From positions 7,899,501 through 7,963,500 of the forward strand of contig OX359193.1 of the NCBI GenBank assembly GCA_947172415.1: a stretch of DNA of 64,000 bases. The letters run 5' to 3'. The notes under the pieces are model-generated. The model saw only the letters and a program-made list of their open reading frames with translations. It did not search any database and was not told where the DNA came from. The translations under genes were made by a program, and so were the position numbers. This DNA is from Chondrosia reniformis (lineage: Eukaryota; Porifera; Demospongiae; Chondrillida; Chondrillidae). Each line of letters starts with the position of its first letter. Position 1 is the first letter of the stretch. Shown one piece after another: positions 4,974 through 49,554 of the stretch.

Positions 4974-5156
4974 TTTTGTCGGTCACACGTCCTATACGTA
5001 TATACCCACTAGTATATTGACCTATACACCCATGATTCATACCATTGCAATGTATATATATATGCTATAAGGTACTATATAAGGTACATTTATGAATACT
5101 CGATTGTCTACATAAGCATTTCTGTAAATTGAGTTCAAACTTTAAACTTAAATCTT

Positions 5157-8100
5157 TCAGAGTTCATCATGCTTAGCCTTGAGTGTCTCTCTGGCCTTCT
5201 GAGCTATGTTTGATGGAACCCTAAACCTTGCAAGTGGGCAGTCCCCTTCAATATTCTGACAAAAGAGCTTTTCCAAAGAGGCTGATTTGACAATATCAAA
5301 TCCAACGTTTCCTCCAAATGTTGAAGGCTTCCAGTAATGAGAAGTGGAAATTGGTTCTGCAAAAATACCTTTCAGTGCAAAAGGGGTTACCAATTCAGTC
5401 ATGGTTTGGCCAAATATCTTGTTGGGCATGTGTTTCTCCATAATTATACCAACATAAAAGTCAAGGCCTTCTATGTCTTCATAAATCTCCTCCATATCTT
5501 TAGCCACTTCACTGTCACCTTTGTATGAATATATAGACAATGGAAAATATTATAAATCTTCAATATGCAGTTAACACACCTGTCAATTCTTCAAAAGATT
5601 TATAGGGCTCCATGTTAAAAAATCTCCTGTAATTATTAAAAGACTGCATTCTCAGTTGGCGTTCATATTTAATTAGTTTGGTGCTGACTTCCATTGTGTG
5701 ACTCCCATGGTTATGAGAGGTAACCTATGTGACGAGAGGTAACCTATGTGACGAGAGGTAACCTATGTGACGAGAGGTAACCTATGTGATGGTGAGGGGT
5801 CACCTATGTGACGAGCGGTAACCTATGTGATGAGAGGTAACCTATGTGACAAGAGGTAACCTATGTGACGAGCGGTAACCTATGTGATGAGGGGTCACCT
5901 ATGTGACGAGCGGTAACCTATGTGATGAGAGGTAACCTATGTGACGAGCGGTAACCTATGTGACGAGCGGTAACCTATGTGACGAGCGGTAACCTATGTG
6001 ACGAGAGGTAACCTATGTGACGAGCGGTAACCTATGTGACGAGCGGTAACCTATGTGACGAGAGGTAACCTATGTGACGAGCGGTAACCTATGTGACGAG
6101 CGGTAACCTATGTGACGAGCGGTAACCTATGTGACGAGAGGTAACCTATGTGATGAGAGGTAACCTATGTGACGAGCGGTAACCTATGTGACGAGCGGTA
6201 ACCTATGTGATGAGCGGTAACCTATGTGATGAGCGGTAACCTATGTGACGAGCGACCCACTAGTAATCTATATATATAACAGTAAAATGATGTTTTAGAT
6301 TATTCATGCACTACTATCATAGAGTACGGTAGTACTCTATAAGTAGGGATGGCCGAAAAAAACATGGCCGCCCTATTCAATGTATTATCAATTAACATAT
6401 ACATTCAATTAAATGCACTTGATGTTTACATGTACGTATATATTCTTAAGTAGGTATTAATGTATGTGGCTATTATACAGGTATATAGGCATATATATAA
6501 CCATCTTCATTATATTTCCAGTGCATACTGCGTATATGCTTACCATCCCAGCTAGATTCTTCGACATAGAGTCAACAAACTCACTCATGCCATGTTTCAG
6601 CAATGGTTCCACATTAAACATGAAGTCCTCCATTGTGTAAATTGTTCCAGCAATGTCAAACCTGTCAGGGGCTAGCGGGTGCCAGTGATAGAGGTGATCA
6701 AAAGCTAGATGAATGCGATTACTGGTAGGAATATTCTCCCCAAACATTATTTCTGGCTTGTAGACAAAGTGTAGTTTGAAATTGGCAAGGTGATTAACAT
6801 AATCCTCAACAGTCACCTTAATCATTTCTCCTGGTACATATATAGGTAAAAATACATTACTAAGCTTCCATAAGCACAATATCAAACACAAATATATACC
6901 TAATTATGTAGTCACTAATTCTATTATTAAATGTATTACTAGAAAGATAATATATTACATAATGACGTACATACATTGGAATATAAAAGGACCTGTGTTG
7001 TCATTATATAACAAGCAGTTACATGAACACCCTCAGAGGTTACAATCTTATCACCTTTGTCATTCAATATAATTAATTAAATTGTCAATAAATGATTTTT
7101 CGGTTCCTCTTGAAGCTTTATTATACACCTAATACTTCATGCATGCACTGTACTACTATTTAGTGTAGTCATACCAACCTGTAAGTATTATCTTTGCTGT
7201 CTGATACAGTCTTTCATCGTCCCAAGAAGGGTGTTCCTTCTTCAAAACGGAACATACTCTATTGTGTTCTCTCAGGAAGATGGTACTATACATCAACAGT
7301 CCAGGCAGCAATGCAAAGAAGGGATGACCAAGAGCAAATCTCTTATCTTCTGGGACATTATCCGGATAATGCATAGTAACATTAGCGTCCTTCTGAAATG
7401 GAGGCCATTCCTCTCCATTAATTATCTGAAATAATGAAGGACGCATGATCAGTATCAAGAAAATAATAAAGTTAGTTTTAGGGGAGTTAATTGCACTAAA
7501 GCCTAGACTATATATGATGATAAAATGAATAATTTAATACGATCCCCCATGCAGCCATAAGATTTTGATCTTTTGGTGGGTTAACATACTATATAGTGAT
7601 AGTTCACTTCTTTTTTTTGGTATATATATATTCAAAAGGTTAATTGGCATATTATTATATACCTTCCAGTGATTGATCACTCCTATATTTTGGTATTCAA
7701 GAGGTTAATTGTTCAATCAATATATAATCTATAAGGTGATGTATTAGTCTTAACCTGTGATTTCAGCTTTCCATTAGTGAAGGAACGTAGCAGGTTCTCC
7801 CTCTCCACACTATCGCCATAGACATTGGAGGCATCAATGGTGTGTCGTCCCCAGGTCATTCCAGGTCCCTTTTTAAAATCAGTCTTAAAAAACTGGTGAG
7901 TTAAATGTTGTGCCCAAAATATAAACATGAGACTGGTGTTAAGTGAATCTGGAATGAAATCCTTTCTTTTGAAAAGCTTTTCAGCAACTTCCTCAGGATC
8001 AGGTGGGTTCTTTTTACCTATTATGTGTATGAGTACATGTAAGTTGGGAGAGCATGCAGCTATATACGTATAGCTAAGCTACATGTAAAGACATGCTATC

Positions 8101-9930
8101 CTGATTAAAAATCATGTATCTCTATGAACAACTGCTATGGAAAGCTAAGAGGGAACTGTCGTACTAATTTAAGAGTGTATATATATCCATATACAGAGTA
8201 GATACAGTGTAGCAATTGAACTAACCAGCTATTCCAAATGGCGTGGGACAGTCCTTTGGTACTGGAGGCAGGCACATTGCAAAATAGGATCTGTTCAGTT
8301 GTGCCTCCCTTGTAGTATATTCATGACCGGAATTGTATAGAGGTGGTTCAGCAATGGTTGATATTCCTCCTACATATGTTTATGCATATAAGTATATGTA
8401 CAGATATATATATGCTTACTCTGTAAAAAGCCTATAGGGAACTAAACCTGGAGAGAGCTTTGGATGAAGATACCTATAAGAAAACACCATGGCTCCCTCT
8501 TTTATACTATTACCTGCCTGCAGGATATGAGCAAACTGAAAGTTTAAAAAAACACTCGTTATACATTCAGCTACCCATATCTGTTAAATCACCCTTTTAT
8601 ACACCTTATCCTATATTCACTGAACTGATGGACCATTTCAGAAATTTGTGCCTGCACATGTGACTAGATTACATATATGTATCTAGCCATGGGTGGATGG
8701 ACTGGCAGCCATGGGTGGATGGACTGGCAGCCATGGTGGATGGACTGGCAGCCATGGGTGGATGGACTGGCAGCCATGGGTGGATGGACTGGCAGCCATG
8801 GTGGATGCACTGGCAGCCATGGGTGGATGGACTGGCAGCCATGGTGGATGGACTGGCAGCCATGGGTGGATGGACTGGCAGCCCAAACACTCCAAATTAG
8901 TCTCAGACTGGTACTACTGATAAAATGAATGGCGAACCACAGAGGATATTCTGATGTTTTGTAGCAATAATTTTCTACTTTAACCCATGGCCATAAAGAA
9001 CGTATAAGCACCTATAACCCAGTACTTTTATATAGTCAGTCTGTATAGCTCAGTACTTTTATATAGTGTTTTAAGTAAAAAGTCTCTGAGAAACTCTACC
9101 CTGTTAACAATACTCCAAATCCAGTCAAAATGTTGAAACAAATAGTTAATAGTTTCCCTGCTTGGTCTGAACAAATTGCTCAACCAAGTTGACAAATATG
9201 CTACAACAGGAAGAAGATAAAAAACAAGAATAAAAATACACACCAAATGTGCTGTAGCTATGGTATATGTATATGTATTACTGTCCTCTGTTTTCATTAA
9301 CCTGCCTATCGATGAAGACTGCATCACTCTTACCATGCTCACAGTCAGTCCCATAGTAGCCTGTCTCTGTACAATCACAGGTATAACCATTTCCTTCAGA
9401 CATGCATACTCCTTTGTTCTGGCAAGGAAATGAACAACAAGGATTGCCTATATAGGGTAGAAAGTGAAGCAATACAGCTCTATACATATTATAACAATGT
9501 CATAGCAGCTCATATATATAGGGCAGAAAGTGAAGCAATACAGCACTATACCTATTTTAACGATGTCATAGCTAGCAGCTCAACCAAGTCTAATAGTATA
9601 TAACCACACAATATTCTACACGTATACAAATAAGATATAAATCTAAATATTGTCATAATTCTAGATTGGCGTTACTGACAATCAAACTCGATCCGAGTCA
9701 ATATATATTTTTTAGTGCTACATTGGACTTTTGTAATGTCCTAGCACCTGTTGGTGTGCTGCACTCTAATCATGATATTGATATTGATATACGCGAAGCA
9801 GTTGGTCACAACCTATAATATTATACTCGATATACTACGAGATTGGCTTACTTGAACATGCTAAATGGTAGCACACGATGAACAACAAACAAAACAGTTC
9901 TACTATAATTCGGCTCGACCCTCTGTCCAT
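5157..9930 (-). CDS. PTGS: Prostaglandin G/H synthase (cyclooxygenase), tandem copy 1
   Basis: Cyclooxygenase/peroxidase converting arachidonate-type fatty acids to prostaglandin H2 in the ER lumen. Nine exons join in phase: 9852-9930, 9334-9447, 9057-9200, 8226-8369, 7755-8017, 7179-7425, 6544-6830, 5580-5724 and 5157-5518; 594 aa, about the family's length. Signal peptide 1-25; EGF module 27-64 with the NPCC start; membrane-binding helices about 65-112 including Arg103 (family Arg120); NRS glycosylation site; distal [11 protein letters not shown] with His201 (family His207); LYHWHPL with catalytic Tyr378 (family Tyr385) and heme ligand His381 (family His388); C-terminal HDEL retention signal. 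Oddities: Phe348 where vertebrate enzymes, and copies 2 and 3, have the substrate-gate Tyr355; Ala522 in place of the aspirin-acetylated Ser530. Start chosen because it opens a clean signal peptide whose exon joins the EGF exon in phase. Family assignment is very secure; activity is inferred. Confidence 0.95.
5714..6255. repeat. 19-bp minisatellite spanning the exon 8 splice acceptor, COX copy 1
   Basis: About 28 copies of the unit AGGTAACCTATGTGACGAG. On the coding (-) strand each unit consists of the last 7 intron bases (CACATAG) plus the first 12 bases of COX exon 8 (GTTACCTCTCAT). The array therefore grew by tandem duplication across the splice acceptor and carries about 28 acceptor look-alikes. 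The equivalent arrays in copies 2 and 3 have about 23 and 29 units. Confidence 0.93.
8686..8882. repeat. GGATGGACTGGCAGCCATGG-type minisatellite in COX copy 1 intron 3
   Basis: About nine copies of a 21-22 bp unit (GTGGATGGACTGGCAGCCAT). COX copies 2 and 3 keep only one relic of the unit (GGACTGGCAGCC), so the array expanded in copy 1 only, or was lost in the others. It sits beside a short segment inverted relative to the other copies. Confidence 0.9.
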
Positions 9931-10620
9931 GGCCGCCGCAAACCCAATTGATCAAAGGGAAGGATTTATGAGGTCATCGTCGTCGATTCGAGTACACTAG
10001 TACGACACCGATCGCGACAGGCATATCGGCTAACATGACACGTATGTGAGGATTCATCTTACTAGAAGACAACTTGGAACTACCAGCAAGAGGACAAGCC
10101 AGAAAATCTGCCTCATGTAAGTCCAATTTCATTTTCTATATAGCATGCCAAGATCAAGACTCGCTGATATTAAGACCATGTGATCTTGCAGTATATATAT
10201 ACATGTATAGCATATTTTGATTTATTTATCATGTATTGCAAAGGAATGATAAATGATGTAGGTCCCCCTGTTTATACCAGCCATGGCCGATGGGGCTGTA
10301 CCTCTTGTAAACCAATAATAATAACAGTGACAGTGTGCCAAACCAGTTCAACATCCCCAGAACCAGAAATTTACATCAAAGCCACCACTGACTCTTAATA
10401 AGGACTTGCATTCATTGAGTATCATGATTGTAATACAAACATAGAATCTAATGTTTTTGGTGGAAATATAACATACAATTTATATAGAATTGTCATCCAC
10501 AGCATATATACAATCACACTTATCAAAGAGCATTTCCTATTTCTTTTAATATAGGAAATAATAATAAAACAATGAATCAGCAATATCAGCTTTAAGTTCA
10601 CAAGGTTATCACAGAAGTGT
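9931..10620. other. COX copy 1 upstream region with a retroposon-like tail
   Basis: No gene seen. The block is nearly the same upstream of all three COX genes and again at 49555-50222, so it travels with COX exon 1. At about 10272-10335 it holds a TATACCAGCC...AATAATAATAAC stretch resembling the 3' tail of the insert that interrupts the ATPase exon copies at 12276-12567. This suggests an old copy of the same retroposon family. No convincing TATA box was identified for COX. Confidence 0.6.
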
Positions 10621-12760
10621 TTAATTATGAAAGTGTCTAAATATCTTACAATTATAAGACAATTTAGTTGCTTTGCCTGAAACTGTTACCCATAACACCA
10701 AATCCAATTCCACACAGGTACTGAGTACTCTCGCTGCCATCTGATTTGTCAGTGAGTGGTCCAGTGTGAAGGGGATAGGCTTATAAAATGTAGACTTCCT
10801 GCCATGTTCCATGATCATGTTGTGTATGGGAGAGCCCTTTACTTTCTGACACAAATACCTGTCCTTATCTCTCAGTATCACGTTCATACACACATCCTGC
10901 AGTCTTTGGACACCAATGTACGTATATACAGATATGTGCAACGAATATTAATTACCCTAGCAAGACTATACATTCACATTATGAAGGGGACAGATGAGGC
11001 ACTGTCCTTTTCTGAACTACACAGAATCAACAAATCTTAACATTTTTGTCTACAACTATGTTGAGTTACCCCAATGCAGTATCCTAAAATCTCCTCTCCA
11101 CTTTCTATATCCTCGCTTAGTTCTTGGTATGTCACCAAATCGCATTGTGTTTTGAGGAAAATTTCCTCCAAAAATAATTACTTGAACAGAGTAACCATGG
11201 AAACAGGTAGCTGTGTGCCAATATCTGGGAGCCAATGGAAGTGATACCTGAAGGAGAGACAAACTTAGGAAGATGATTCAAGCAAATTTTAGCAATGAAT
11301 GTAACTCTCTGTTGTCCTTCAATTTTCTTAACATGTGCTTACTTTTTGCCATTTGGGTGTGTCATCACTATCAAGTGTCAATAGCCAGTACCCTATTGGT
11401 GTCCCTCTCCTTTCCCCACAGGAGAAATATTACTTGCTTGACTTCTTCTCCAAAGGCAATCTTTCCAACCATTGCCGGATCAACAAGGCACTGCTCAATC
11501 AATGAGTAGTACAAGATCTCAGTCTCTACTTCGGTGAGCTTGAACTGTTGGGCCACCCTGACAACATGGGGAAGATAAACTCTACCCTTTTCCTTCTCTG
11601 TAGCAGACAATTGGGTTTTGATAGCTTGCTCCATCCAGTTCTTCACCTGCACACATATACATAACCAGACTACCCTCATCCACTCCATACATATCATAAC
11701 AGAGCTAGTGCATACATACATATGCGTATACCCATAACATGCACATTAACCTGTATGTATACTGATTTATTTTGTATACCAATCTCCATTAGTGATCTTA
11801 GCTATGAATTTCGATTAAACAATACTCAATTCACTGAAAATAAAACTTTGAAAGGCAAACAGAACGCCTTAAACAATGGAAACAAAAATGAAGCAGAAAT
11901 AACACAATTTTAAAGTTAGTTTTCATCATTAATGCAACAAGCAACGGAACTGTGAGGTAACCATGGCAATTAAAGGTTCATAATTATTATTCTGAGACTT
12001 TCATTATTAAAGCAATCACACATTACCAATTTAACTAGAAGGGGGCGTTTCCCCATAACACACCCATGGCCAGGAGACAAATTTATGTCATATAATCTAA
12101 AGGAAGAACTTGAATAAATAATATCTTCCCTAGATTGTGTACAAATTTCAGAACTCAAAAGGAAAGTATCAATCTTAAGGTCGCTCTTGTCGATTTGTAC
12201 TTCCTTCGTAGACTTTCCAGGAAGAAGTAGCAACTCCCTTTTAATCTCAAATATGTTCAGACAAGTAGTATAAAATTGAATCCTGTAAGAGTGCGGAGTA
12301 CGTGCGTGTGGATGGAAAGCCAGGTCTCACTATACATCGGGGACTGTGCCGTTTCTGGACACCAATTGTAGTGACCTCAGAGGTGGTCGGAACTGAGCCC
12401 GACTAATCATTGTTTATCTGTAATGATTTTTTTGTGTGTTCAATTTATAAATTATAATAACAATTTAGAACCTGTGTATTATTTCATGTACATGTGTGTC
12501 CTAGTCCTCCATTTATACCAGCCTTGGGCTGAAGGGGTAACCTTAATAATAATAATAACAATAACAATATAAAAGGAAGACAGATCCTTACAAAATTCGA
12601 CATTAATGTTTTCGCTATCCTTGCCATAAGCGAGATGGGGTGATGTTTCCAAGAATTGAAGCTGCTTTTGATTCAAGAGTTTAGTGATGGACGGACATTC
12701 ATCCTGCAGTGTTAGCAGAAACGCTGCTGGCTCCGCGTTCGCTTCCTTCTCGTCAGCCAT
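10621..12760 (-). pseudogene. AAA ATPase-Kelch fusion pseudogene a
   Basis: Tandem-duplication junction. The right part copies ATPase exon 1 (start 12760) and the 5' half of exon 2. At about 11488-11491 exon 2 switches, in frame, into Kelch exon 3 (EQC then LVDPAMVG). The two parents share only GCA there. Kelch exons 4 (within 11056-11262) and 5 follow. Damage: a 292-bp insert in the ATPase exon 1 copy, loss of that exon's donor, an 11-bp deletion near 11391 in the Kelch part, and a missing G in a G-run near 10770 that shifts the last exon. No intact product is possible from this copy. Confidence 0.88.
12276..12567 (+). mobile_element. Short retroposon-like insert with 7-bp target duplication
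   Basis: A 292-bp insert splits the ATPase exon 1 copy. The uninterrupted exon at about 4775-4790 has a single TATAAAA, whereas here TATAAAA flanks both ends (12269-12275 and 12568-12574). The insert ends in an AATAATAATAACAATAACAA tail, typical of SINE/LINE-type retroposition on the + strand. No coding capacity. I could not assign a clear Pol III A/B box or a family name. Confidence 0.75.
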
Positions 12761-12931
12761 TTTTGTCGGTCACACGTCCTATACCCACTAGTATATTGAC
12801 CTATACACCCATGATTCATACCATTTCAATGTATATATATATGCTATAAGAATATAAGGTACATTTATGAATACTCGATTGTCTACATAAGCATTTCTGT
12901 AAATTGAGTTCAAACTTTAAACTTTAATTTT

Positions 12932-15900
12932 TCAGAGTTCATCATGCTTAGCCTTGAGTGTCTCTCTGGCCTTCTGAGCTATGTTTGATGGAACCCTAAA
13001 CCTTACAAGTGGGCAGTCCCCTTCAATATTTTGACAAAAGAGCTTTTCCAAAGAGGCTGATTTGACAATATCAAATCCAACATTTCCTCCAAATGTTGAA
13101 GGCTTCCAGTAATGAGAAGTGGAAATTGGTTCTGCAAAAATACCTTTCAGTGCAAAAGGGGTTACCAAGTCAGTCATGGTTTGGCCAAATATCTTGTTGG
13201 GCATGTGTTTCTCCATAATTATACCAACATAAAAGTCAAGGCCTTCTATGTCTTCATAAATCTCCTCCATATCTTTAGCCACTTCACTGTCACCTTTGTA
13301 TGAATATATACGTAGATAATGGAAAATATTGTACATCTTCACTATGCAGTTAACACACCTGTCAATTCTTCAAAAGATTTATAGGGCTCCATGTTAAAAA
13401 ATCTCCTGTAATTATTAAAAGACTGCATTCTCAGTTGGCGTTCATATTTAATTAGTTTGGTGCTGACTTCCATTGTGTGACTCCCATGGTTATGAGAGGT
13501 AACCTATGTGATGAGAGGTAACCTATGTGATGAGAGGTAACCTATGTGATGAGAGGTAACCTATGTGATGAGGGGTAACCTATGTGATGAGGGGTAACCT
13601 ATGTGATGAGAGGTAACCTATGTGATGAGAGGTAACCTATGTGATGAGGGGTGACCTATGTGACGAGAGGTAACCTATGTGACGAGAGGTAACCTATGTG
13701 ATGAGAGGTAACCTATGTGATGAGCGGTAACCTATGTGATGAGAGGTAACCTATGTGATGAGGGGTAACCTATGTGATGAGCGGTAACCTATGTGATGAG
13801 AGGTAACCTATGTGATGAGGGGTAACCTATGTGATGAGAGGTAACCTATGTGATGAGAGGTAACCTATGTGATGAGAGGTAACCTATGTGATGAGAGGTA
13901 ACCTATGTGATGAGAGATAACCTATGTGATGAGTGTATGTGGGTATTATACAGGTAGGCATATATACGTACAACCATCTTCATTATATTTCCAGTGCATA
14001 CTACATATATGCTTACCGTCCCAGCTAGATTCTTCGACATAGAGTCAACAAACTCACTCATGCCATGTTTCAGCAATGGTTCCACATTAAACATGAAGTC
14101 CTCCATTGTGTAAATTGTTCCAGCAATGTCAAACCTGTCAGGGGCTAGCGGGTGCCAGTGATAGAGGTGATCAAAAGCTAGATGAATGCGATTACTGGTA
14201 GGAATATTCTCCCCAAACATTATTTCTGGCTTGTAGACAAATTGTAGTTTGTAATTGGCAAGGTGATTAATATAATCCTCCACAGTCACCTTCATCATTT
14301 CTCCTGGTACATATATTGGTAAAAATACATTACTAAGCTTCCATAAGCACAATATCAAAACACACATATATGGATGAACTAAGGGGCATCTTAAATATGG
14401 AACAAGAGAGGTATTTTTGAATGTACGTATGTATATAATAGTGAAATATGTACATATCGCATACAGTATATACCTAATTATGTAAACACTAATTCTATTA
14501 TTAAATGTATTACTAGAAAGATATACTACATAATGATGTACATACATTGGAATATCATTTTAATAAATGTTGTCATTATATAACTAGTAGTTACATGAAC
14601 ACCCTCAGAGGTTACAATCTTATCGCCTTTGTCATTCAATATAATTAATTAAATTCTCAATAAATGATTTTTCGGTTCCTCTTGAAGCTTTATTATACAC
14701 CTAATACTTCATGCATGCACTATACTACTATTTAGTGTAGTCATACCAACCTGTAATTATTAACTTTGCTGTGTGATACAGTCTTTCATCGTCCCAAGAA
14801 GGGTGTTCCTTCCTCAAAACGGAACATACTCTATTGTGTTCTCTCAGGAAGATGGTGCTATACATCAACAGTCCAGGCAGCAATGCAAAGAAGGGATGAC
14901 CAAGAGCAAATCTCCTATCTTCTGGGACATTATCTGGATAATTCATAGTCACATTAGCGTCCTTCTGAAATGGAGGCCATTCCTCTCCATTAATTATCTG
15001 AAATAATGAAGGACTCGTGATCAGTGTCAATAAAATAATAAAGTTAGTTTTAGGGGAGTTAATTGCACTAAAGCCTAGACTATATATGATGATAAAATGA
15101 ATAATTTAATAGGATCCCCCATGCAGCCATGTATGATAACATTTTGATCATTTGGTGGGTTAACATACTATATACCTTCTAGTGATAATTCACTTCTTTA
15201 TTTTGGTATATGTTCAAAAGGTTAATTGTTAACATAATATATAGTCTATAAGGTTATATATACCCCGTTGCCGGGGCAACCGCCGGGATATAACAGTATT
15301 TAAGAAGCTATATACTGCCCTCGGATTCTTAAATTCTGTTTAAGAAGCTATATACTGCCCTCGGATTCTTAAAGTCCCGCCAAAATAACGATAAGAAGCT
15401 TTGGAGTATATATCACTTATACCACGGCACTGAGGTGTATATGGGTTTATATACGTACTCGCCCTCGGGCGCTACGCGCCCTCGTGTCTCGTACGTATAA
15501 AACCCATATACACCTCAGCGCCGTGGTATAACTAATACGTATTAGTCTTAACCTGTGATTTCAGCTTTCCATTAGTGAAGGAACGTAGCAGGTTCTCCCT
15601 CTCCACACTATCGCCATAGACATTGGAGACATCAAAGGCATGTCGTCCCCAGGTCATTCCAGGTCCCTTTTTAAAATCAGTCTTAAAAAACTGGTGAGTG
15701 AAATGTTGTGCCCAAAATACAAGCATGAGACTGGTGTTAAGTGAATCTGGAATGAAATCCTTTCTTTTGAAAAGCTTTTCAGCAACTTCCTCAGGATCTG
15801 GTGGGTTCTTTTTACCTATTATGTGTATGAGTACATGTCAGTTGGGAGAGCATGCAGCTATATACGTATAGCTAAGCTACATGTAAAGACATGCTATCCT

Positions 15901-17891
15901 GATTAAAAATCATGAACAACTGCTATGGAAATTGAATATTTTAATTTAGAATGTTTTAATGAGTGTATAAGATCACATCCTTTTGCTGATGAAGACCTTT
16001 GTGGTCGAAACGTTCAATAACTTGTATAAAAATTACTGTTGTTGATATATGAAAACCACTAATCTTATAATGAACCCAACAAGCCATACCATTTCATTAA
16101 AGAGTGTATATATATCCATATACAGAGTAGATACAGTGTAGCAATTGAACTAACCAGCTATTCCAAATGGCGTGGGACAGTCCTTTGGTACTGGAGGCAG
16201 GCACATTGCGAAATAGGATCTGTTCAGTTGTGCCTCCCTTGTAGTATATTCATGACCGGAATTGTATAGAGGTGGTTCAGCAATGATTGATATTCCTCCT
16301 ACATATGCATATAAGTATATGTACAGATATATATATGCTTACTCTGTAAAAAGCCTATAGGGAACTAAACCTGGAGAGAGCTTTGGATGAAAATACCTAT
16401 AAGAAAACTCCATGGCTCCCTCTCCTATACTATTACCCGCCTGCAGGATATGAGCAAACTGAAAGTTTAAATATACATTCAGCTATCCATATCTGTTATA
16501 TCACCCTCTTATGCACCTTACCCTATATCCATCCACCCATGGCTAGATACATATATGTAGTCTAGTCGCATGTGCAGGCACAAATTTCTGAAATGGTCCA
16601 TCAGTTCCGTGAACCGGACTGGCAGCCCAAACACTCCAAATTAGTCTCAGACTCAATACTGATAAAATGAATGGCGAGCCACATAGCATATTCTGATGTT
16701 TTGTAGCAATAATTTTCTACTTTAATTCTACATATAACCCAGTACTTTTATATAGTCAGTCTGTATAGCTCAGTACTTTCATATAGTCTGTACTTTTATA
16801 TAGTACTTTTATATAATCAGTCTGTATAGCTCAGTACTTTCATATAGTCTGTACTTTTATATAGTGTTTTAAGTAAAAAGTCTCTGAGAAATTCCACCCT
16901 GTTAACAATACTCCAAATCCAGTCAAAATGTTGAAACAAATAGTTAATAGTTTCCCTGCTTGGTCTGAACAAATTACTCAACCAAGTTGACAAATAGGCT
17001 ACAACAGGAAGAAGATAGAAAAACAAGTGAAATGTGAATGAGAATGAATAAAAATACACACCAAATGTGCTGTAGCTATGGTATATGTATATGTATTACT
17101 GTCCTCTGTTTTCATTAACCTGCCTATCGATGAAGACTGCATCACTCTTACCATGCTCACAGTCAGTCCCATAGTAGCCTGTCTCTGTACAATCGCAGGT
17201 ATAACCATTTCCTTCAGACATGCATACTCCTTTGTTCTGGCAAGGAAATGAACAACAAGGATTGCCTATATAGGGCAGAAAGTGAAGCAATACAGCTCTA
17301 TACCTATTATAACGATGTCATAGCAGCTCATATATATAGGGCAGAAAGTGAAGCAATACAGCACTATACATATTATAACAATGTCATAGCAGCTCATATA
17401 TATAGGGCAGAAAGTGAAGCAATATGAAGCAATACAGCTCTATACCTATTATAACAATGTCATAGCAGCTCATATATATAGGGCAGAAAGTGAAGCAATA
17501 CAGCACTATACATATTATAACAATGTCATAGCTAGCAGCTCAACCAAGTCTAAGAGTATATAACCACACAATATTCTACACGTATACAAATAAGATATAA
17601 ATCTACAATATTGTCATAATTCTAGATTGGCGTTACTGACAATCAAACTCGATCCGAGTCAATATATATTTTTTAGTGCTACATTGGACTTTTGTAATGT
17701 CCTAGCACCTGTTGGTGTGGTGCACTCTAATCATGATATTGATATTGATATACGCGAAGCAGTTGGTCACAACCTATAATATTATACTCGATATACTACG
17801 TGATTGGCTTACTTGAACATGCTAAATGGTAGCACACGATGAACAACAAACAAAACAGTTCTACTATAATTCGGCTCGACCCTCTGTCCAT
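12932..17891 (-). CDS. PTGS: Prostaglandin G/H synthase (cyclooxygenase), tandem copy 2
   Basis: Nine exons in the same phases as copy 1: 17813-17891, 17152-17265, 16855-16998, 16155-16298, 15553-15815, 14751-14997, 14017-14303, 13359-13503 and 12932-13293; 594 aa with no disablement seen. Distal Gln/His, catalytic Tyr, heme His, membrane-binding Arg and C-terminal HDEL are all kept. Unlike copy 1 it has Tyr at the family Tyr355 gate position (residue 348, HLANYKLQF). Ala replaces Ser530 here too. It is closer to copy 3 than to copy 1: both share a hairpin-rich insert in intron 5 and a 170-bp insert in intron 4. This points to a later duplication of copies 2 and 3. Confidence 0.95.
13495..13935. 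repeat. 19-bp splice-acceptor minisatellite, COX copy 2
   Basis: About 23 units of the same 19-bp repeat as in copy 1, here mostly with GATGAG rather than GACGAG. The array fills almost the whole of intron 7. Confidence 0.93.
15255..15538. mobile_element. Hairpin-rich fold-back insertion in COX copy 2 intron 5
   Basis: Absent from COX copy 1 and present in copies 2 and 3. It contains a GTTGCCGGGGCAAC palindrome (about 15265-15278), two direct copies of a hairpin with TTTAAGAA/TTCTTAAA stems (about 15300-15372), and a long inverted repeat. The arms of that inverted repeat, about 40 bp each, run from TATACCACGGC (15418) to GCCGTGGTATA (15530) around a GC-rich loop. No coding frame. It is best read as a fold-back or MITE-like element. 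The insert ends about 15 bp from the exon 5 donor, yet the exon is intact. Confidence 0.72.
15929..16102 (+). mobile_element. 170-bp insert with a hammerhead-ribozyme-like core, COX copy 2 intron 4
   Basis: Absent from COX copy 1. At 15985-16010 it has CTGATGA, a GACC/GGTC stem with a TTTGT loop, then GAAA. These are the conserved core and stem II of hammerhead ribozymes, with one extra unpaired A before the stem. Stems I and III are weak, so self-cleavage is unproven. Similar cores occur in Penelope-type and other short retroelements (established knowledge). It lies on the strand opposite to COX. Confidence 0.5.
17275..17525. repeat. About 65-bp tandem repeat in COX copy 2 intron 1
   Basis: Roughly four copies of a unit beginning GGGCAGAAAGTGAAGCAATA and ending GTCATAGCAGCTCA. 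COX copy 1 has two copies of the unit (9470-9580) and copy 3 one. The array begins directly upstream of the exon 2 acceptor. Confidence 0.85.
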
Positions 17892-18600
17892 GGCCGCCGC
17901 AAACCCAATTGATCAAAGGGAAGGATTAATGAGGTCATCGTCGTCGATTCGAGTACACTAGTACGACACCGATCGCGACAGGCATATCGGTTAACATGAC
18001 ACGTATGTAAGGATTCATCTTACTAGAAGACAACTTGGAACTACCAGCAAGAGGACAAGCCAGAAAATCTGCCTCATGTAGGTCCAATTTCATTTTCTAG
18101 ATAGCATGCCAAGATCAAGACTCACTGATATTAAGACCATGTGATCTTGCAGTATATATATACATGTATAGCATATTTTGATTTATTTATCATGTATTGC
18201 AAAGGAATGATAAATGATGTAGGTCCCCCTGTTTATACCAGCCATGGCCGATGGGGCTGTACCTCTTGTAAACCAATAATAATAACAGTGACAGTGTGCC
18301 AAACCAGTTCAACATCCCCAGAACCAGAAATTTACATCAAAGCCACCACTGACTCTTAATAACGACTTGCATTCATTGAGTATAATGATTGTAATACAAA
18401 CGTAGAATCTAATGTTTTTGGTGGAAATATAACATACAATTTATATAGAATTGTCATGCACAGCATATATACAATCACACTTATCAAAGGGCATTTCCTA
18501 TTTCTTTTAATATAGGAAATAATAATAAAACAATGAATCAGCAATATCAGCTTTAAGTTCACAAGGTTATCACAGAAGTGTAAGGTAATTATGTGTTTAA
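17892..18600. other. COX copy 2 upstream region
   Basis: Near-identical to 9931-10620, including the TATACCAGCC...AATAATAATAAC tail at about 18232-18295. No gene seen. Confidence 0.6.
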
Positions 18601-18639
18601 TTATGAAAGTGTCTAAATATCTTACAATTATAAGACAAT

Positions 18640-20780
18640 TTAGTTGCTCTGCCTGAAACTGTTACCCATAACGCCAAATCCAATTCCACACAGGTACTGA
18701 GTACTCTCGCTACCATCTGATTGGTCAGTGAGTGGTCCAGTGTGAAGGGGGATAGGTTTATAAAATGTAGACTTCCTGCCATGTTCCATGATCATGTTGT
18801 GTATGGGAGAGCCCTTTACTTTCTGACACAAATACCTGTCCTTATCTCTTAGTATCACGTTCATACACATATCCTGCAGTCTTTGGACACCTATGTACGT
18901 ATATATATACAGATATGTGCAACGAATATTAATTACCCTAGCAAGACTATACATTCACATTATGAAGGGGGCAGATGAGGCACTGTCCTTTTCTGAACTA
19001 CACAGAATCAACAAATCTTAACATTTTTGTCTACAACTATGTTGAGTTACCCCAATGCAGTATCCTAAAATCTCCTCTCCACTTTCTATATCCTCGCTTA
19101 GTTCTTGGTATGTCACCAAATCGCATTGTGTTTTGAGGAAAATTTCCTCCAAAAATAATTACTTGAACAGAGTAACCATGGAAACAGGTAGCTGTGTGCC
19201 AATATCTGGGAGCCAATGGAAGTGATACCTGAAGGAGAGACAAACTTAGGAAGATGATTCAAGCAAATTTTAGCAATGAATGTAACTCTCTGTTGTCCTT
19301 CAATTTTCTTAACATGTGCTTACTTTTTGCCATTTGGGTGTGTCATCACTATCAAGTGTCAATAGCCAGCTATCATCCAGTACCCTATTGGTGTCCCTCT
19401 CCTTTCCCCACAGGAGAAATATTACTTGCTTGACTTCTTCTCCAAAGGCAATCTTTCCAACCATTGCCGGATCAACAAGGCACTGCTCAATCAATGAGTA
19501 GTACAAGATCTCAGTCTCTACTTCGGTGAGCTTGAACTGTTGGGCCACCCTGACAACACGGGGAAGATAAACTCTACCCTTTTCCTTCTCTGTAGCAGAC
19601 AATCGGGTTTTGATAGCTTGCTCCATCCAGTTCTTCACCTGCACACATATACATAACCAGACTACCCTCACCCACTCCATACGTATCATAACAGAGCTAG
19701 TGCATACATACATATGCGTATACCCATAACACATTAACCTGTATGTACTGACTTATTTTGTATACCAATCTCCATTAGTGATCTTAGCTATGAATTTCGA
19801 TTAAACAAAACTTTGGAAGGCAAACAGAACGCCTTAAACAATGGAAACAAAAATGAAGCAGAAATAACACAATTTTAAAGTTAGTTTTCATCATTAATGC
19901 AACAAGCAACGGAACTGTGAGGTAACCATGAGGTAACCATGGCAAATAAAGGTTCATAATTATTATTCTGAGACTTTCATTATTAAAGCAATCACACATT
20001 ACCAATTTAACTAGAAGGGGGCGTTTCCCCATAACACACCCATGGCCAGCAGACAAATTTATGTCATATAATCTAAAGGAAGAACTTGAATAAATAATAT
20101 CTTCCCTAGATTGTGTACAAATTTCAGAGCTCAAAAGGAAAGTATCAAGGAAGCAATCTTAAGGTCGCTTTTGTCGATTTGTACTTCCTTCGTAGACTTT
20201 CCAGGAAGAAGTAGCGACTCCCTTTTAATCTCAAATATGTTCAGACAAGTAGTATAAAATTGAATCCTGTAAGAGTGCGGAGTACGTGCGTGTGGATGGA
20301 AAGCCAGGTCTCACTATACATCGGGGACTGTGCCGTTTCTGGACACCAATTGTAGTGACCTCAGAAGTGGTCGGAACTGAGCCCGACTAACCATTGTTTA
20401 TCTGTAATGATTTTTTTGTGTGTTCAATTTATAAATTATAATAACAATTTAGAACCTGTGTATTATTTCATGTACACGTACATGGTTTTTTGTCTTTGTT
20501 TTATGTATTTCATGTCAGGTCCTCCATTTATACCAGCCTTGGGCTGAAGGGGTAACCTTAATAATAATAATAACAATAACAATATAAAAGGAAGACAGAT
20601 CCTTACAAAATTCGACATTAATGTTTTCGCTATCCTTGCCATAAGCGAGATGGGGTGATGTTTCCAAGAATTGAAGCTGCTTTTGATTCAAGAGTTTAGT
20701 GATGGACGGACATTCATCCTGCAGTGTTAGCAGAAACGCTGCTGGCTCCGCGTTTAATTCGCTTCCTTCTCGTCAGCCAT
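18640..20780 (-). pseudogene. AAA ATPase-Kelch fusion pseudogene b
   Basis: Second copy of the ATPase-Kelch junction. The fusion exon (19324-19638, 105 codons) is open throughout, keeps both splice sites, and joins ATPase residues ending LIEQC to Kelch LVDPAMVGK. Kelch exons 4 and 5 behind it are also open, unlike copy a. The 5' end is damaged: the ATPase exon 1 copy (start 20780) has a 5-bp insertion near 20755, the retroposon-like insert at 20260-20582, and a deletion removing its donor. A transcript from another start could still carry the fusion exon. I call it a pseudogene with an intact fused 3' half. Confidence 0.82.
20260..20582 (+). mobile_element. Retroposon-like insert, second copy
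   Basis: Same insertion, at the same site and with the same TATAAAA duplication, as 12276-12567, so it predates the duplication that made pseudogenes a and b. It is about 30 bp longer than the first copy, which has lost an internal stretch before the CTCCATTTATACC block. Confidence 0.75.
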
Positions 20781-20952
20781 TTTTGTCGGTCACACGTCCT
20801 ATACCCACTAGTATATTGACCTATACACCCATGATTCATATATACCATTTCAATGTATATATGCTATAAGAATATAAGGTACATTTATGAATACTCAATA
20901 TATGTTAATAAGCATTTCTGTAAATTGAGTTCCAACTTTAAACTTTAATTTT

Positions 20953-23900
20953 TCAGAGTTCATCATGCTTAGCCTTGAGTGTCTCTCTGGCCTTCTGAGC
21001 TATGTTTGATGGAACCCTAAACCTTACAAGTGGGCAGTCCCCTTCAATATTTTGACAAAAGAGCTTTTCCAAAGAGGCTGATTTGACAATATCAAATCCA
21101 ACATTTCCTCCAAATGTTGAAGGCTTCCAGTAATGAGAAGTGGAAATTGGTTCTGCAAAAATACCTTTCAGTGCAAAAGGGGTTACCAAGTCAGTCATGG
21201 TTTGGCCAAATATCTTGTTGGGCATGTGTTTCTCCATAATTATACCAACATAAAAGTCAAGGCCTTCTATGTCTTCATAAATCTCCTCCATATCTTTAGC
21301 CACTTCACTGTCACCTTTGTATGAATATATACGTAGATAATGGAAAATATTGTACATCTTCACTATGCAGTTAACACACCTGTCAATTCTTCAAAAGATT
21401 TATAGGGCTCCATGTTAAAAAATCTCCTGTAATTATTAAAAGACTGCATTCTCAGTTGGCGTTCATATTTAATTAGTTTGGTGCTGACTTCCATTGTGTG
21501 ACTCCCATGGTTATGAGAGGTAACCTATGTGATGAGAGGTAACCTATGTGATGAGAGGTAACCTATGTGATGAGAGGTAACCTATGTGATGAGGGGTAAC
21601 CTATGTGATGAGGGGTAACCTATGTGATGAGGGGTAACCTATGTGATGAGAGGTAACCTATGTGACGAGAGGTAACCTATGTGACGAGAGGTAACCTATG
21701 TGATGAGAGGTAACCTATGTGATGAGAGGTAACCTATGTGATGAGGGGTAACCTATGTGACGAGAGGTAACCTATGTGATGAGAGGTAACCTATGTGATG
21801 AGAGGTAACCTATGTGATGAGGGGTAACCTATGTGACGAGAGGTAACCTATGTGACGAGAGGTAACCTATGTGATGAGAGGTAACCTATGTGATGAGAGG
21901 TAACCTATGTGATGAGGGGTAACCTATGTGATGAGGGGTAACCTATGTGATGAGAGGTAACCTATGTGATGAGAGGTAACCTATGTGACGAGAGGTAACC
22001 TATGTGACGAGAGGTAACCTATGTGATGAGAGGTAACCTATGTGATGAGAGGTAACCTATGTGATGAGTGTATGTGGGTATTATACAGGTAGACATATAT
22101 ACGTACAACCATCTTCATTATATTTCCAGTGCATACTACATATATGCTTACCGTCCCAGCTAGATTCTTCGACATAGAGTCAACAAACTCACTCATGCCA
22201 TGTTTCAGCAATGGTTCCACATTAAACATGAAGTCCTCCATTGTGTAAATTGTTCCAGCAATGTCAAACCTGTCAGGGGCTAGCGGGTGCCAGTGATAGA
22301 GGTGATCAAAAGCTAGATGAATGCGATTACTGGTAGGAATATTCTCCCCAAACATTATTTCTGGCTTGTAGACAAATTGTAGTTTGTAATTGGCAAGGTG
22401 ATTAATATAATCCTCCACAGTCACCTTCATCATTTCTCCTGGTACATATATTGGTAAAAATACATTACTAAGCTTCCATAAGCACAATATCAAAACACAC
22501 ATATATGGATGAACTAAGGGGCATCTTAAATATGGAACAAGAGAGGTATTTTTGAATGTACGTATGTATATAATAGTGAAATATGTACATATCGCATACA
22601 GTATATACCTAATTATGTAAACACTAATTCTATTATTAAATGTATTACTAGAAAGATATACTACATAATGATGTACATACATTGGAATATCATTTTAATA
22701 AATGTTGTCATTATATAACTAGTAGTTACATGAACACCCTCAGAGGTTACAATCTTATCGCCTTTGTCATTCAATATAATTAATTAAATTCTCAATAAAT
22801 GATTTTTCGGTTCCTCTTGAAGCTTTATTATACACCTAATACTTCATGCATGCACTATACTACTATTTAGTGTAGTCATACCAACCTGTAATTATTAACT
22901 TTGCTGTGTGATACAGTCTTTCATCGTCCCAAGAAGGGTGTTCCTTCTTCAAAACGGAGCATACTCTATTGTGTTCTCTCAGGAAGATGGTGCTATACAT
23001 CAACAGTCCAGGCAGCAATGCAAAGAAGGGATGACCAAGAGCAAATCTCTTATCTTCTGGGACATTATCTGGATAATTCATAGTCACATTAGCGTCCTTC
23101 TGAAATGGAGGCCATTCCTCTCCATTAATTATCTGAAATAATGAAGGACTCGTGATCAGTGTCAATAAAATAATAAAGTTAGTTTTAGGGGAGTTAATTG
23201 CACTAAAGCCTAGACTATATATGATGATAAAATGAATAATTTAATACGATCCCCCATGCAGCCATGTATGATAACATTTTGATCATATGGTGGGTTAACA
23301 TACTATATACCTTCTAGTGATAATTCACTTCTTTATTTTGGTATATGTTCAAAAGGTTAATTGTTAACATAATATATAGTCTATAAGGTTATATATACCC
23401 CGTTGCCGGGGCAACCGCTGGGATATAACAGTATTTAAGAAGCTATATACTGCCCTCGGATTCTTAAATTCTGTTTAAGAAGCTATATACTGCCTTCGGA
23501 TTCTTAAAGTCCCGCCAAAATAACGATAAGAAGCTTTGGAGTATATATCACTTATACCACGGCGCTTCGGTGTATATGGGTTTATATACGTACTCGCCCT
23601 CGTGTCTCGTACGCATAAAACCCATATACACCTCAGCGCCGTGGTATAACTAATACGTATTAGTCTTAACCTGTGATTTCAGCTTTCCATTAGTGAAGGA
23701 ACGTAGCAGGTTCTCCCTCTCCACACTATCGCCATAGACATTGGAGACATCAAAGGCATGTCGTCCCCAGGTCATTCCAGGTCCCTTTTTAAAATCAGTC
23801 TTAAAAAACTGGTGAGTGAAATGTTGTGCCCAAAATACAAGCATGAGACTGGTGTTAAGTGAATCTGGAATGAAATCCTTTCTTTTGAAAAGCTTTTCAG

Positions 23901-25707
23901 CAACTTCCTCAGGATCTGGTGGGTTCTTTTTACCTATTATGTGTATGAGTACATGTCAGTTGGGAGAGCATGCAGCTATATACGTATAGCTAAGCTACAT
24001 GTAAAGACATGCTATCCTGATTAAAAATCATGAACAACTGCTATGGAAATTGAATGTTTAAATTGAGAAAGTTTTAATGAGTGTATAAGATCATATCCTT
24101 TTGCTGATGAAGACCTTTGTGGTCGAAATGTTCAATAACTTGTATAAAAATTACTGTTGTTGATATATGAAAACCACTAATCTTATAATGAACCCAACAA
24201 GCCATACCATTTCATTAAAGAGTGTATATATATCCATATACAGAGTAGATACAGTGTAGCAATTGAACTAACCAGCTATTCCAAATGGCGTGGGACAGTC
24301 CTTTGGTACTGGAGGCAGGCACATTGCGAAATAGGATCTGTTCAGTTGGGCCTCCCTTGTAGTATATTCATGACCGGAATTGTATAGAGGTGGTTCAGCA
24401 ATGATTGATATTCCTCCTACATATGTTTATGCATATAAGTATATGTACAGATATATATATGCTTACTCTGTAAAAAGCCTATAGGGAACTAAACCTGGAG
24501 AGAGCTTTGGATGAAAATACCTATAAGAAAACTCCATGGCTCCCTCTCCTATACTATTACCCGCCTGCAGGATATGAGCAAACTGAAAGTTTAAAAAAAC
24601 ACTAGTTATACATTCAGCTATCCATATCTGTTAAATCACCCTCTTATGCACCTTACCCTATATCCATCCACCCATGGCTAGATACATATATGTAGTCTAG
24701 TCGCATGTGCAGGCACAAATTTCTGAAATGGTCCATCAGTTCCGTGAACCGGACTGGCAGCCCAAACACTCCAAATTAGTCTCAGACTCAATACTGATAA
24801 AATGAATGGCGAGCCACATAGCATATTCTGATGTTTTGTAGCAATAATTTTCTACTTTAACCCTACATATAAGCACCTATAACCCAGTACTTTTATATAG
24901 TCAGTCTGTATAGCTCAGTACTTTCATATAGTCTGTACTTTTATATAGTGTTTTAAGTAAAAAGTCTCTGAGAAATTCCACCCTGTTAACAATACTCCAA
25001 ATCCAGTCAAAATGTTGAAACAAATAGTTAATAGTTTCCCTGCTTGGTCTGAACAAATTACTCAACCAAGTTGACAAATAGGCTACAATAGGAAGAAGAT
25101 AGAAAAACAAGTGAAATGTGAATGAGAATGAATAAAAATACACACCAAATGTGCTGTAGCTATGGTATATGTATATGTATTACTGTCCTCTGTTTTCATT
25201 AACCTGCCTATCGATGAAGACTGCATCACTCTTACCATGCTCACAGTCAGTCCCATAGTAGCCTGTCTCTGTACAATCACAGGTATAACCATTTCCTTCA
25301 GACATGCATACTCCTTTGTTCTGGCAAGGAAATGAACAACAAGGATTGCCTATATAGGGCAGAAAGTGAAGCAATATGAAGCAATACAGCACTATACCTA
25401 TTATAACAATGTCATAGCTAGCAGCTCAACCAAGTCTAAGAGTATATAACCACACAATATTCTACACTTATACAAATAAGATATAAATCTACAATATTGT
25501 CATAATTTAGATTGGCGTTTCAGCACAAACTGACATTCAAACTCGATCCGAGTCAATAGCTACATATACGCGAAGCAGTTGGTCACAACCTATAATATTA
25601 TACTCGATATACTACGAGATTGGCTTACTTGAACATGCTAAATGGTAGCACACGATGAACAACAAACAAAACAGTTCTACTATAATTCGGCTCGACCCTC
25701 TGTCCAT
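20953..25707 (-). CDS. PTGS: Prostaglandin G/H synthase (cyclooxygenase), tandem copy 3
   Basis: Nine exons in phase: 25629-25707, 25236-25349, 24939-25082, 24273-24416, 23671-23933, 22886-23132, 22152-22438, 21380-21524 and 20953-21314; 594 aa. All catalytic and heme-binding residues, the EGF cysteines, the membrane-binding Arg and the HDEL end are present. It has Tyr at the Tyr355 gate position and Ala at the Ser530 position. It differs from copy 2 by very few residues (for example Lys/Arg changes in the VPED and VCSVL segments). The next gene upstream is the complete Kelch gene K1, which marks the end of the tandem array. Confidence 0.95.
21514..22068. repeat. 19-bp splice-acceptor minisatellite, COX copy 3
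   Basis: About 29 units of the same 19-bp repeat. The order of unit variants differs from copy 2, so unit number and order changed after the duplication. Confidence 0.93.
23393..23655. mobile_element. Hairpin-rich fold-back insertion in COX copy 3 intron 5
   Basis: Copy of the 15255-15538 element at the same site, with a shortened central loop (the GGGCGCTACGCG part is missing) and a few stem changes. Both TATACCACGGC/GCCGTGGTATA ends are kept. Confidence 0.7.
24046..24220 (+). mobile_element. Insert with hammerhead-like core, COX copy 3 intron 4
   Basis: Copy of 15929-16102. CTGATGA is at 24104-24110 and GAAA at 24125-24128, with the same GACC/GGTC stem. The base after GAAA is T instead of C here. 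Confidence 0.48.
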
Positions 25708-26467
25708 GGCCGCCGCAAACCCAATTGATCAAAGGGAAGGATTTATGAGGTCATCGTCGTCGATTCGAGTACACTAGTACGACACCGATCGCGATAGGCA
25801 TATCGGTTAACATGACACGTATGTAAGGATTCATCTTACTAGAAGACAACTTGGAACTACCAGCAAGAGGACAATTGCAAGCCAGAAAATCTGCCTCATG
25901 TAAGTTCAATTTCATTTTCTATATAGCATGCCAAGATCTAGACTCGCTGATATTAAGACCATGTGATCTTGCAGTATATATATACATGTATATATATTTT
26001 TGATTTATTTATCATGTATTGCAAAGGAATGATAAATGATGTAGGTCCCCCTATTTATACCAGCCATGGCCGATGGAGCTGTACCTATTGTAAACCAATA
26101 ATAATAACAGTGACAGTGTGCCAAACCAGTTCAACATCCCCAGAACTAGAAATTTACATCAAAGCCACCACTGACTCTTAATATAAGAACTTGTAGTCAT
26201 TGAGTATCATGATTGTAATACAAACATAGAATCTAATGTTTTTGGTGGAAGTATAACATACAATTTATATAGAATTGTCATGCACAGCATATATACAATC
26301 ACATTCCACACTTATAAAGAGCATTTCCTATTTCTTTTAATATAGGAAATAATTATAAAACAATGAATCAGCAATATCAGCTTTAAGTTCACAAAAAGGT
26401 ATAAGGTTATCACAGAAGTGTAAGGTAATTATGAAAGTGTCTAAATATCTCACAATTATAAGACAAT
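25708..26467. other. COX copy 3 upstream region
   Basis: Same block as 9931-10620 with the retroposon-like tail at about 26055-26118. It is followed by the 3' untranslated sequence of Kelch gene K1. No additional gene seen. Confidence 0.55.
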
Positions 26468-28668: not shown

Positions 28669-28813
28669 TTCGAGCCTTTCGTGGAATATTCATGGGGAAA
28701 TCCCATGAGGTCGTCCATCTAATAATTTACATAACAGATTATTCATCAATGGAAATTTACAAACCATAAATCCTCGTTAAAAATGCTGTTAAAACGCAAA
28801 CGTAGCAAGCAAA

Positions 28814-32992: not shown

Positions 32993-33314
32993 GGTCTACG
33001 CAAAGAGACAGAAGAGAGATATAATGACCACTCTCAGCATGATTAGCGAAAGGGATGTCCATTAAATCCTTCACTAGGCCAGTGTCTCTCTTACTAGGTA
33101 ATTAAGAGGAGCTCACCAGATTCCGAAAACGTTTATATTTAGCGAGTCATGGTTTCGATTAGCTAGAGTATTAGACTTCCATCCGACTGCGAATGTGCGT
33201 TCAGAAAAGTTTATTCGACTAAAGGGGTGCCGTCATATAGGGGAAACAGTCTGGGAACGTCCCTAGTGTAATCTACACATGCGGTCTGGAGCGTTGGCTA
33301 CAATTTATGGCTGA
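32993..33314. promoter_or_regulatory. Divergent promoter region between Z1 and the macro-domain gene
   Basis: Head-to-head intergenic region (322 bp). It has a block CCGAAAACGTTTATATTTAG near 33123 and an 11-bp palindromic site GGGAACGTCCC at 33253-33263. Both recur in the regions at 38112-38655 and 56605-57260. The 11-mer fits the NF-kB p50-type pattern GGGRN-N-NYCCC (established consensus); binding is inferred. Confidence 0.55.
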
Positions 33315-49400: not shown

Positions 49401-49475
49401 AATATATATACGCAAAGCAGTTGGTCACAAACTATAATATTATACTCGATATACTACGAGATTAAATTGGCTTAC

Positions 49476-49554
49476 TTGAACATGCCAAATGATAGCACAC
49501 GATGAACAATAAACAAAACAGTTCTACTATAATTCGGCTCGACCCTCTGTCCAT
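49476..49554 (-). pseudogene. Orphan COX exon 1 (signal-peptide exon)
   Basis: The 79-bp first exon of COX, with its ATG (49554), signal-peptide reading frame and GTAAG donor intact. It is followed by only about 70 bp of intron 1 before homology stops near 49400. No EGF or catalytic exon follows within 5 kb. It marks the breakpoint of the block duplication that produced K2 and Z4. The promoter may still be active and splice into the sequence to its left. Confidence 0.85.

Follow-up and report, generated by a model that had tools for sequence, protein, structure and literature searches.

We analysed a 64,000-nucleotide stretch of the genome of the sponge Chondrosia reniformis (contig OX359193.1, positions 7,899,501 to 7,963,500; hereafter the window), which contains three complete cyclooxygenase (COX) genes lying side by side on the minus strand. 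The window is part of an 8,804,818-base contig (C5 in our numbering) in a 15-contig, 117,379,552-base genome, and the assembly, odChoReni1.1, was built from HiFi plus Hi-C data (PMC12181767). An initial annotation of the stretch had described three complete tandem genes of 594 amino acids (aa) with an HDEL end, arranged head-to-tail. The spliced models, in which all introns are GT-AG, bear this out; the triplet spans 5157-25707 from the copy-1 stop to the copy-3 start, the same coordinates as annotated, and self-BLAST and unit alignment resolve three head-to-tail units of ~8 kb.

Three tandem COX genes

The genes are listed below with ovine residue numbers, mapped through mouse COX-2.

5157-9930, minus strand: COX copy 1, class A (Val349, Phe355, Leu205, Ile228, Glu524), 594 aa, spliced with GT-AG introns; exons 5´ to 3´ 9930-9852, 9447-9334, 9200-9057, 8369-8226, 8017-7755, 7425-7179, 6830-6544, 5724-5580, 5518-5157
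12932-17891, minus strand: COX copy 2, class B (Ile349, Tyr355, Phe205, Phe228, Asp524), 594 aa; exons 5´ to 3´ 17891-17813, 17265-17152, 16998-16855, 16298-16155, 15815-15553, 14997-14751, 14303-14017, 13503-13359, 13293-12932
20953-25707, minus strand: COX copy 3, class B, 594 aa; exons 5´ to 3´ 25707-25629, 25349-25236, 25082-24939, 24416-24273, 23933-23671, 23132-22886, 22438-22152, 21524-21380, 21314-20953

The exons of copy 3 were set by hand and transferred to copies 1 and 2 by local alignment. Each copy has nine exons and a coding sequence of 1785 nt (594 codons plus stop) with 0 internal stops. The exon sizes (79, 114, 144, 144, 263, 247, 287, 145 and 362 nt) are common to all three copies, and 24 of 24 introns (8 in each of the 3 copies) are GT...AG. 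HDEL, a C-terminus of the endoplasmic reticulum (ER) retention type, is present on 3/3 copies; the signal peptide was called by eye.

In phmmer searches, the sponge protein matched mouse COX-2 (1pxx) with an E value of 1e-186 and human COX-1 (6y3c) with 3.8e-186, and it shares 256 of 563 aligned residues with the former and 260 of 549 with the latter (45-47%). Among the best 60 rows against the PDB, the top 35 are all COX (prostaglandin G/H synthases) with E below 1e-180, and the first non-COX match is Peroxinectin A (E 2.9e-22). Residues 16-579 align to residues 7-572 of the mouse COX-2 chain, which places the EGF, membrane-binding and catalytic domains in the COX order and agrees with the EGF module and membrane-binding helices annotated initially; the EGF-like module aligns with that of COX, cysteines included. 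Pfam at E ≤ 0.01 returned An_peroxidase only, with the EGF model absent from the matches, and an NCBIfam search gave no match.

A phylogeny with other COX proteins had been named as a check in the initial annotation. Our tree holds the three sponge COX, mouse COX-2, human COX-1 and six peroxidases of the same genome, the vertebrate proteins being the only non-sponge COX. The sponge proteins group with COX-1 and COX-2, and these five rows are split from the six sponge peroxidases with 100/100; human COX-1 and mouse COX-2 are joined with 99/99, and the sponge COX with 92/93. Sequence, domain order and tree bear out an animal-type COX. On this tree the sponge COX branch is older than the vertebrate COX-1/COX-2 split, which is as far as the tree goes. 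A misidentified peroxidase was set aside in view of the COX-only top PDB matches and the split from the six sponge peroxidases.

A search of the genome with the COX protein gave 54 matches, namely 27 from the nine exons of the three copies, one relic and 26 weaker ones (best E 1.1e-8), which include several An_peroxidase genes and N-terminal or EGF-only stretches. The relic is the following feature.

49476-49554, minus strand: COX exon 1 in a fourth copy, together with the sequence upstream of it, inside a second duplication that starts near 49403; its end was set by the copy-3 exon-1 boundary

No further COX exon was matched at the relic, and this search found no further COX locus apart from the exon-1 relic at 49554. 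A second multi-piece An_peroxidase gene (G000:C1:43168-45532, minus strand) is absent from the COX protein matches.

The ratio of nonsynonymous to synonymous substitution rates (dN/dS) by the NG86 method is 0.30 for copies 1 and 3, 0.36 for copies 1 and 2, and 0.17 for copies 2 and 3; YN00 gives 0.35 and 0.44 for the first two pairs. That the frames are intact and dN/dS stays below 1 suggests retention of the COX genes. We consider it likely that the window carries a functional sponge COX (PTGS-family) locus that was expanded by tandem duplication.

Each copy contains a minisatellite at the boundary of intron 7 and exon 8.

5715-6254, minus strand: 19-bp minisatellite, copy 1, 28 acceptor units
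13492-13933, minus strand: 19-bp minisatellite, copy 2, 23 acceptor units
21513-22068, minus strand: 19-bp minisatellite, copy 3, 29 acceptor units

The units repeat the AG acceptor together with the first exon bases, and the exon-8 splice acceptor of each copy is the last, exon-side unit, a pattern that suggests that the minisatellite has grown out of this acceptor. None of the upstream units (27, 22 and 28 in copies 1, 2 and 3) gives an open frame when taken as an alternative site, so only the last unit can make the enzyme. An exact two-unit query of the whole genome gave 15 matches, all in copies 2 and 3; copy 1 was missed by this query through sequence variation, and variant arrays elsewhere could escape it likewise.

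Substrate pocket and enzyme classes

Tyr385, His207, His388, Gln203, Trp387, Leu384, Tyr348, Phe381, Phe209, Phe518, Leu531 and Gly533 are kept in all copies, and these include the catalytic Tyr and both haem His residues that had been annotated (Tyr385, distal His207 and proximal His388). Changed in all copies are Ser530 to Ala, Gly526 to Val, Ala527 to Thr, residue 523 to Thr and Ser353 to Ala, as well as Val344 to Thr, Leu359 to Phe, residue 513 to Met and Leu534 to Ile, among others. The aspirin-site Ser530, which is characteristic of the family and not required for membership, is Ala in 3/3 copies. Regarding the ring-closure residues, Leu384 is kept and Gly526 is replaced by Val. At the channel mouth, Gly aligns with Arg120 and an Arg is found at 119, with no gap versus mouse COX-2 there; a local one-residue shift could restore the Arg120 role from Arg119. 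Because Ser530, Gly526 and the aligned Arg120 are replaced, classical synthesis of prostaglandin (PG) H2 and aspirin sensitivity cannot be assumed; a complete COX, as first annotated, needs qualification at these three positions in all copies. Replacements at Leu384, Phe518, Gly526, Ser530 and Leu534 could increase side products (PMC13049297). An N-glycosylation motif is present at residue 138 (ovine 144). The exon-4 acceptors (8369, 16298 and 24416) form a TAG/GAG tandem pair in all three copies, by which a minor splice form could add or drop a Gly beside the channel-mouth Arg.

Out of 594 residues, copies 2 and 3 differ at 2, copies 1 and 3 at 18, and copies 1 and 2 at 20. The term near-identical therefore suits copies 2 and 3 and does not suit copy 1, which is a distinct type, and the equal triplet of the initial annotation is replaced by three genes of two classes, with the middle copy lying within a recombinant unit. 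Copies 1 and 3 differ at ovine positions 123, 198, 199, 205, 227, 228, 230, 274, 330, 334, 336, 341, 349, 355, 358, 433, 524 and 578. Four of these 18 (205, 349, 355 and 524) fall in the channel-lining set, which comprises 28 residues of the 563 aligned and was assembled from Table 2 and text of PMC13049297 (hypergeometric p 0.009). Exons 5-7, which make up 45% of the coding sequence, hold 15 of the 18 differences (binomial p 0.0013). Three other lining lists gave p 0.0002, 0.0014 and 0.011.

Position 349 is Val in copy 1 and Ile in copies 2 and 3. We take it to be the position of the Val/Ile difference in coral COX, supported by Schneider 2002, whose title names serine 530 and valine 349. At this presumed position, the Plexaura 15R-type residue Ile349 is found in copies 2 and 3 and not in copy 1. 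A Val/Ile point mutation in Plexaura homomalla COX is credited with 15R-PGH2, of opposite configuration at carbon 15 (PMC12966737). Other channel residues of the sponge proteins are changed too, so position 349 by itself does not reveal the product. From these residues, copy 1 (Val349) and copies 2 and 3 (Ile349, Phe228, Asp524) probably differ in regio- or stereochemistry.

Several points weigh against a functional locus with two specialised classes. The enrichment tests are post hoc, the differences having been seen beforehand. Nonsynonymous and synonymous codon changes number 15 and 7 in exons 5-7 versus 3 and 8 elsewhere, which is not significant (Fisher p 0.061), and the dN/dS values, all below 1, do not point to positive selection on the copies. 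With 5 differing nucleotides among 1782, copies 2 and 3 may have separated too recently for any loss to be visible. With Arg120, Gly526 and Ser530 replaced, the enzyme could also be weak or non-cyclising.

Some of these points favour an ordinary recent tandem amplification for dosage, in which the copies are functionally equivalent and the copy-1 differences near-neutral. The 2 residues and 5 nucleotides that separate copies 2 and 3, the conservative nature of several channel differences (V/I, E/D, Y/F) and the non-significant Fisher test by exon group are all consistent with it. However, four positions of the published lining set (205, 349, 355 and 524) differ together between the classes, and we regard dosage as a fair possibility, though less likely than not. 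The initial annotation had offered dosage or specialisation; specialisation gains some support from the substrate channel, which differs between copy 1 and copies 2 and 3, and dosage fits copies 2 and 3.

It is somewhat doubtful, yet conceivable, that the proteins are COX-derived fatty-acid dioxygenases (DOX) that form hydroperoxides from arachidonic or long sponge acids and no prostaglandin endoperoxides, somewhat like the cyanobacterial and fungal dioxygenases. Gly526 is Val and Ser530 is Ala in all three copies; the corresponding residues of 10S-DOX are Ile and Ala, and that of 10R-DOX at 526 is Val; replacement of Gly526 can increase side products (PMC13049297). In contrast, Leu384, Tyr348, Trp387, Phe381, Gly533, Leu531 and Phe518 are kept, and the best 35 PDB sequences of 60 rows are all COX, a comparison made without an aligned DOX sequence. 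Prostaglandins have also been reported from another demosponge (PMC9012834).

Duplication units and the middle copy

The COX genes lie in three consecutive units, which also contain pieces of both neighbouring genes.

3941-11490, no strand assigned: unit A (7550 bases), with an ATPase-type gene piece, COX copy 1 and a kelch-type gene piece (self-BLAST, unit alignment)
11488-19482, no strand assigned: unit B (7995 bases), hybrid, with the left part (including COX exons 2-9) like unit C and the right part like unit A
19480-27361, no strand assigned: unit C (7882 bases), with COX copy 3 (self-BLAST, unit alignment)
11479-11500, no strand assigned: A/B junction from the kelch-type to the ATPase-type piece, with the same sequence at the B/C junction at ~19471-19492 (unit alignment, open frames)

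The names of the neighbours rest on adjoining frames (AAA, E 5.4e-8; kelch, E 1.9e-18, both by Pfam), and the junction pieces themselves have winged-helix or kelch matches below the curated cut-offs. The same sequence at both inner junctions points to one founding duplication. The units diverge from one another by 1.9-4.7% substitutions, those carrying copies 2 and 3 by ~2%. An intron-by-intron divergence of 11-21% for introns 3-5 between copy 1 and copies 2 and 3 was dropped, since MAFFT was judged to align non-homologous insertions; by BLAST, this region of copies 1 and 3 contains two segments that are 95.3 and 96.7% identical.

Unit B combines sequence of the two outer units, and the switch fits best in intron 1 of COX. 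From the left end of the unit to this intron, sites common to B and C number 136, against 18 for A with B and 17 for A with C; on the right of the change point, the counts are 29 for A with B, 7 for B with C and 13 for A with C. A first change-point fit used 190 of the 220 filtered informative sites (the 30 shared by A and C were omitted), with 300 shuffles that scanned every third split. When all splits were fitted, twice the log-likelihood difference (2dlnL) was 66.0 versus a maximum of 13.7 in 200 shuffles, and it was 73.8 versus a shuffle maximum of 20.2 with the A=C sites included. The best change point is 17554-17582 in unit B, within intron 1 of copy 2 (support interval 17522-17642). 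A single unequal crossover between two tandem copies would produce such a pattern. We infer that copy 2 pairs a copy-3-type enzyme with upstream sequence that, beyond the proximal promoter, resembles that of copy 1. It counts against a sharp assignment that exon 1 has 0 informative sites and that the 340 bases just 5´ of it (9931-10270) hold 2 B=C sites and 4 each of the A=B and A=C kinds, the clear A=B excess (23 of 36 sites) starting only beyond 10270.

It is very unlikely that alternative haplotypes or a single locus were laid out as tandem copies by the assembly. The ~2% difference between the units of copies 2 and 3 could be allelic in a polymorphic sponge, and the primary k-mer completeness of 69.43% can be read as high heterozygosity (PMC12181767). 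However, no N occurs in the window, copy 1 has clearly diverged, and the mosaic make-up of unit B is in keeping with recombination. Moreover, the mean read of ~12.9 kb (10.31 Gb in 0.80 M reads) exceeds the ~8-kb unit, the assembly has a QV of 69.8, and 4 haplotypic duplications were removed in curation (PMC12181767).

Further features accompany the units. At both unit junctions (11371-11745 and 19309-19752, minus strand), an open frame runs in phase from the ATPase-type piece (weak winged-helix match) into the kelch-type exon, possibly a chimeric gene that arose through the tandem duplication. A further set of segmental duplications relates ~25561-33276 to 49403-56874, with 94-96% identity in the main pieces, and a portion occurs again, inverted, at 58716-62164; the duplicate at 49403-56874 carries COX exon 1 and its upstream region. 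Within the duplicated stretch, a Death-domain open frame (28814-29629, minus strand; Pfam E 3.8e-7) lies beside the kelch-type gene.

Descent, proposed mechanism and known systems

Exons 2-9 of human PTGS2 are 117, 144, 144, 182, 84, 247, 287 and 148 nt long. The sponge exons 2-8 are 114, 144, 144, 263, 247, 287 and 145 nt, where 263 equals 182 plus 84 less 3, and the three 3-nt shortfalls coincide with single-residue gaps in the phmmer alignment. If these PTGS2 sizes are right, all eight sponge introns are at vertebrate intron places and one vertebrate intron is missing. This shared layout argues for descent from an animal ancestor and not for transfer, the lengths 144, 144, 247 and 287 being equal to those of human PTGS2. 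Horizontal acquisition or contamination from an alga or a bacterial symbiont is extremely improbable: Chondrosia is a high-microbial-abundance sponge (PMC12181767) and red algae have COX (PMC13049297), but each gene has eight spliceosomal introns on a chromosome-size contig, and a scan of bacterial and archaeal genomes, in which a single-protein query reaches close relatives only, gave 13 pattern matches with 0 confirmed. A literature search for these exon sizes found no match, and the passages available of a diatom COX paper (PMC7096440) and a Daphnia paper (PMC2483973) hold no exon data or sponge sequence.

For a functional, tandemly expanded COX locus, we propose the following course. An ~8-kb segment with one COX gene and pieces of both neighbours would have been duplicated head-to-tail, and this older array of copies 1 and 3 would have become three by one unequal crossover, leaving the class B enzyme with two upstream regions, a copy-1-like one at copy 2 and its own at copy 3. 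Each protein is predicted to enter the ER and to be retained there by HDEL, with the membrane-binding helices seating it in one membrane leaflet. The haem (His388/His207) would generate a radical on Tyr385, with which the oxygenation of a polyunsaturated fatty acid begins. With the rebuilt pocket (Ala530, Val526, Thr527, Thr523 and Arg119 in place of 120), aspirin insensitivity would be expected, and the product mix would be expected to tilt away from vertebrate 15S-PGH2.

A bolder extension, which we offer tentatively and judge rather unlikely, is that one locus encodes two catalytically distinct COX classes (Val349/Phe355 versus Ile349/Tyr355/Phe228) on an aspirin-proof Val526/Ala530 pocket. 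Their products would have opposite configuration at C15 or would be oxylipins without ring closure, possibly made from long demospongic acids, with the Ile349 enzyme behind two upstream regions. By the shared intron layout, a fully formed COX would date back to the last ancestor that sponges and vertebrates had in common. Havird et al. in 2015 reportedly found COX homologues in none of the poriferan and ctenophore genomes of the time, which put the rise of COX among cnidarians and bilaterians. A sponge COX gene with introns, and with exons sized like those of vertebrates, would shift this origin back to the stem of the animals, provided that later surveys of sponges have not made that shift already.

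A COX in a sponge is not without precedent, since the family is an established one and the sponge Phakellia ventilabrum carries a ptgs2 annotation; PGD2, PGE2, PGF2a, PGE3 and PGF3a are reported from it (PMC9012834); a review also states that sponges contain prostaglandins (PMC6669704). In the literature searched, part of which was available as passages, the Phakellia annotation was the only sponge COX gene encountered. As to other oxylipin enzymes, the same genome has one partial lipoxygenase match (L031, G000:C6:5795960-5796745) with one in-frame TAG; the MAPEG family has two matches in the genome. Cytosolic PLA2 (PF01735) had no match, and neither had the control of that search. What makes the locus worth testing is its pocket, together with its two enzyme classes and the recombinant unit in the middle. 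It is a natural comparison of residues 349, 355, 524, 526 and 530, and it offers a COX without the aspirin serine, by which the early history and the chemistry of the enzyme family become testable.

Compared with vertebrate PTGS1 and PTGS2, the sponge proteins have the signal peptide, EGF module, membrane-binding helices and haem-peroxidase domain in the same order, and share Tyr385, His207, His388, Gln203, Trp387, Leu384 and Tyr348. They differ in having three tandem copies at one locus, in an HDEL end where the vertebrate end is of the STEL type, and in Ser530Ala, Gly526Val, Ala527Thr, Val/Ile523Thr, Ser353Ala, Val344Thr, Leu359Phe and Gly120 with Arg119. A Val/Ile difference between COX forms is found in both the sponge and the 15R-COX and 15S-COX of the octocoral Plexaura homomalla, whereas the sponge also changes 205, 228, 355 and 524 between its classes, and 526 and 530 in all copies. 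The Phakellia gene is likewise from a sponge with reported prostaglandins and enters this comparison through its annotation name. Cyanobacterial 10S-DOX and fungal linoleate DOX resemble the sponge proteins at two places, with Ala at 530 in 10S-DOX and Ile or Val at 526 in 10S-DOX and 10R-DOX (PMC13049297), while the sponge protein differs from them in its EGF module and in its best 35 PDB matches, which are COX.

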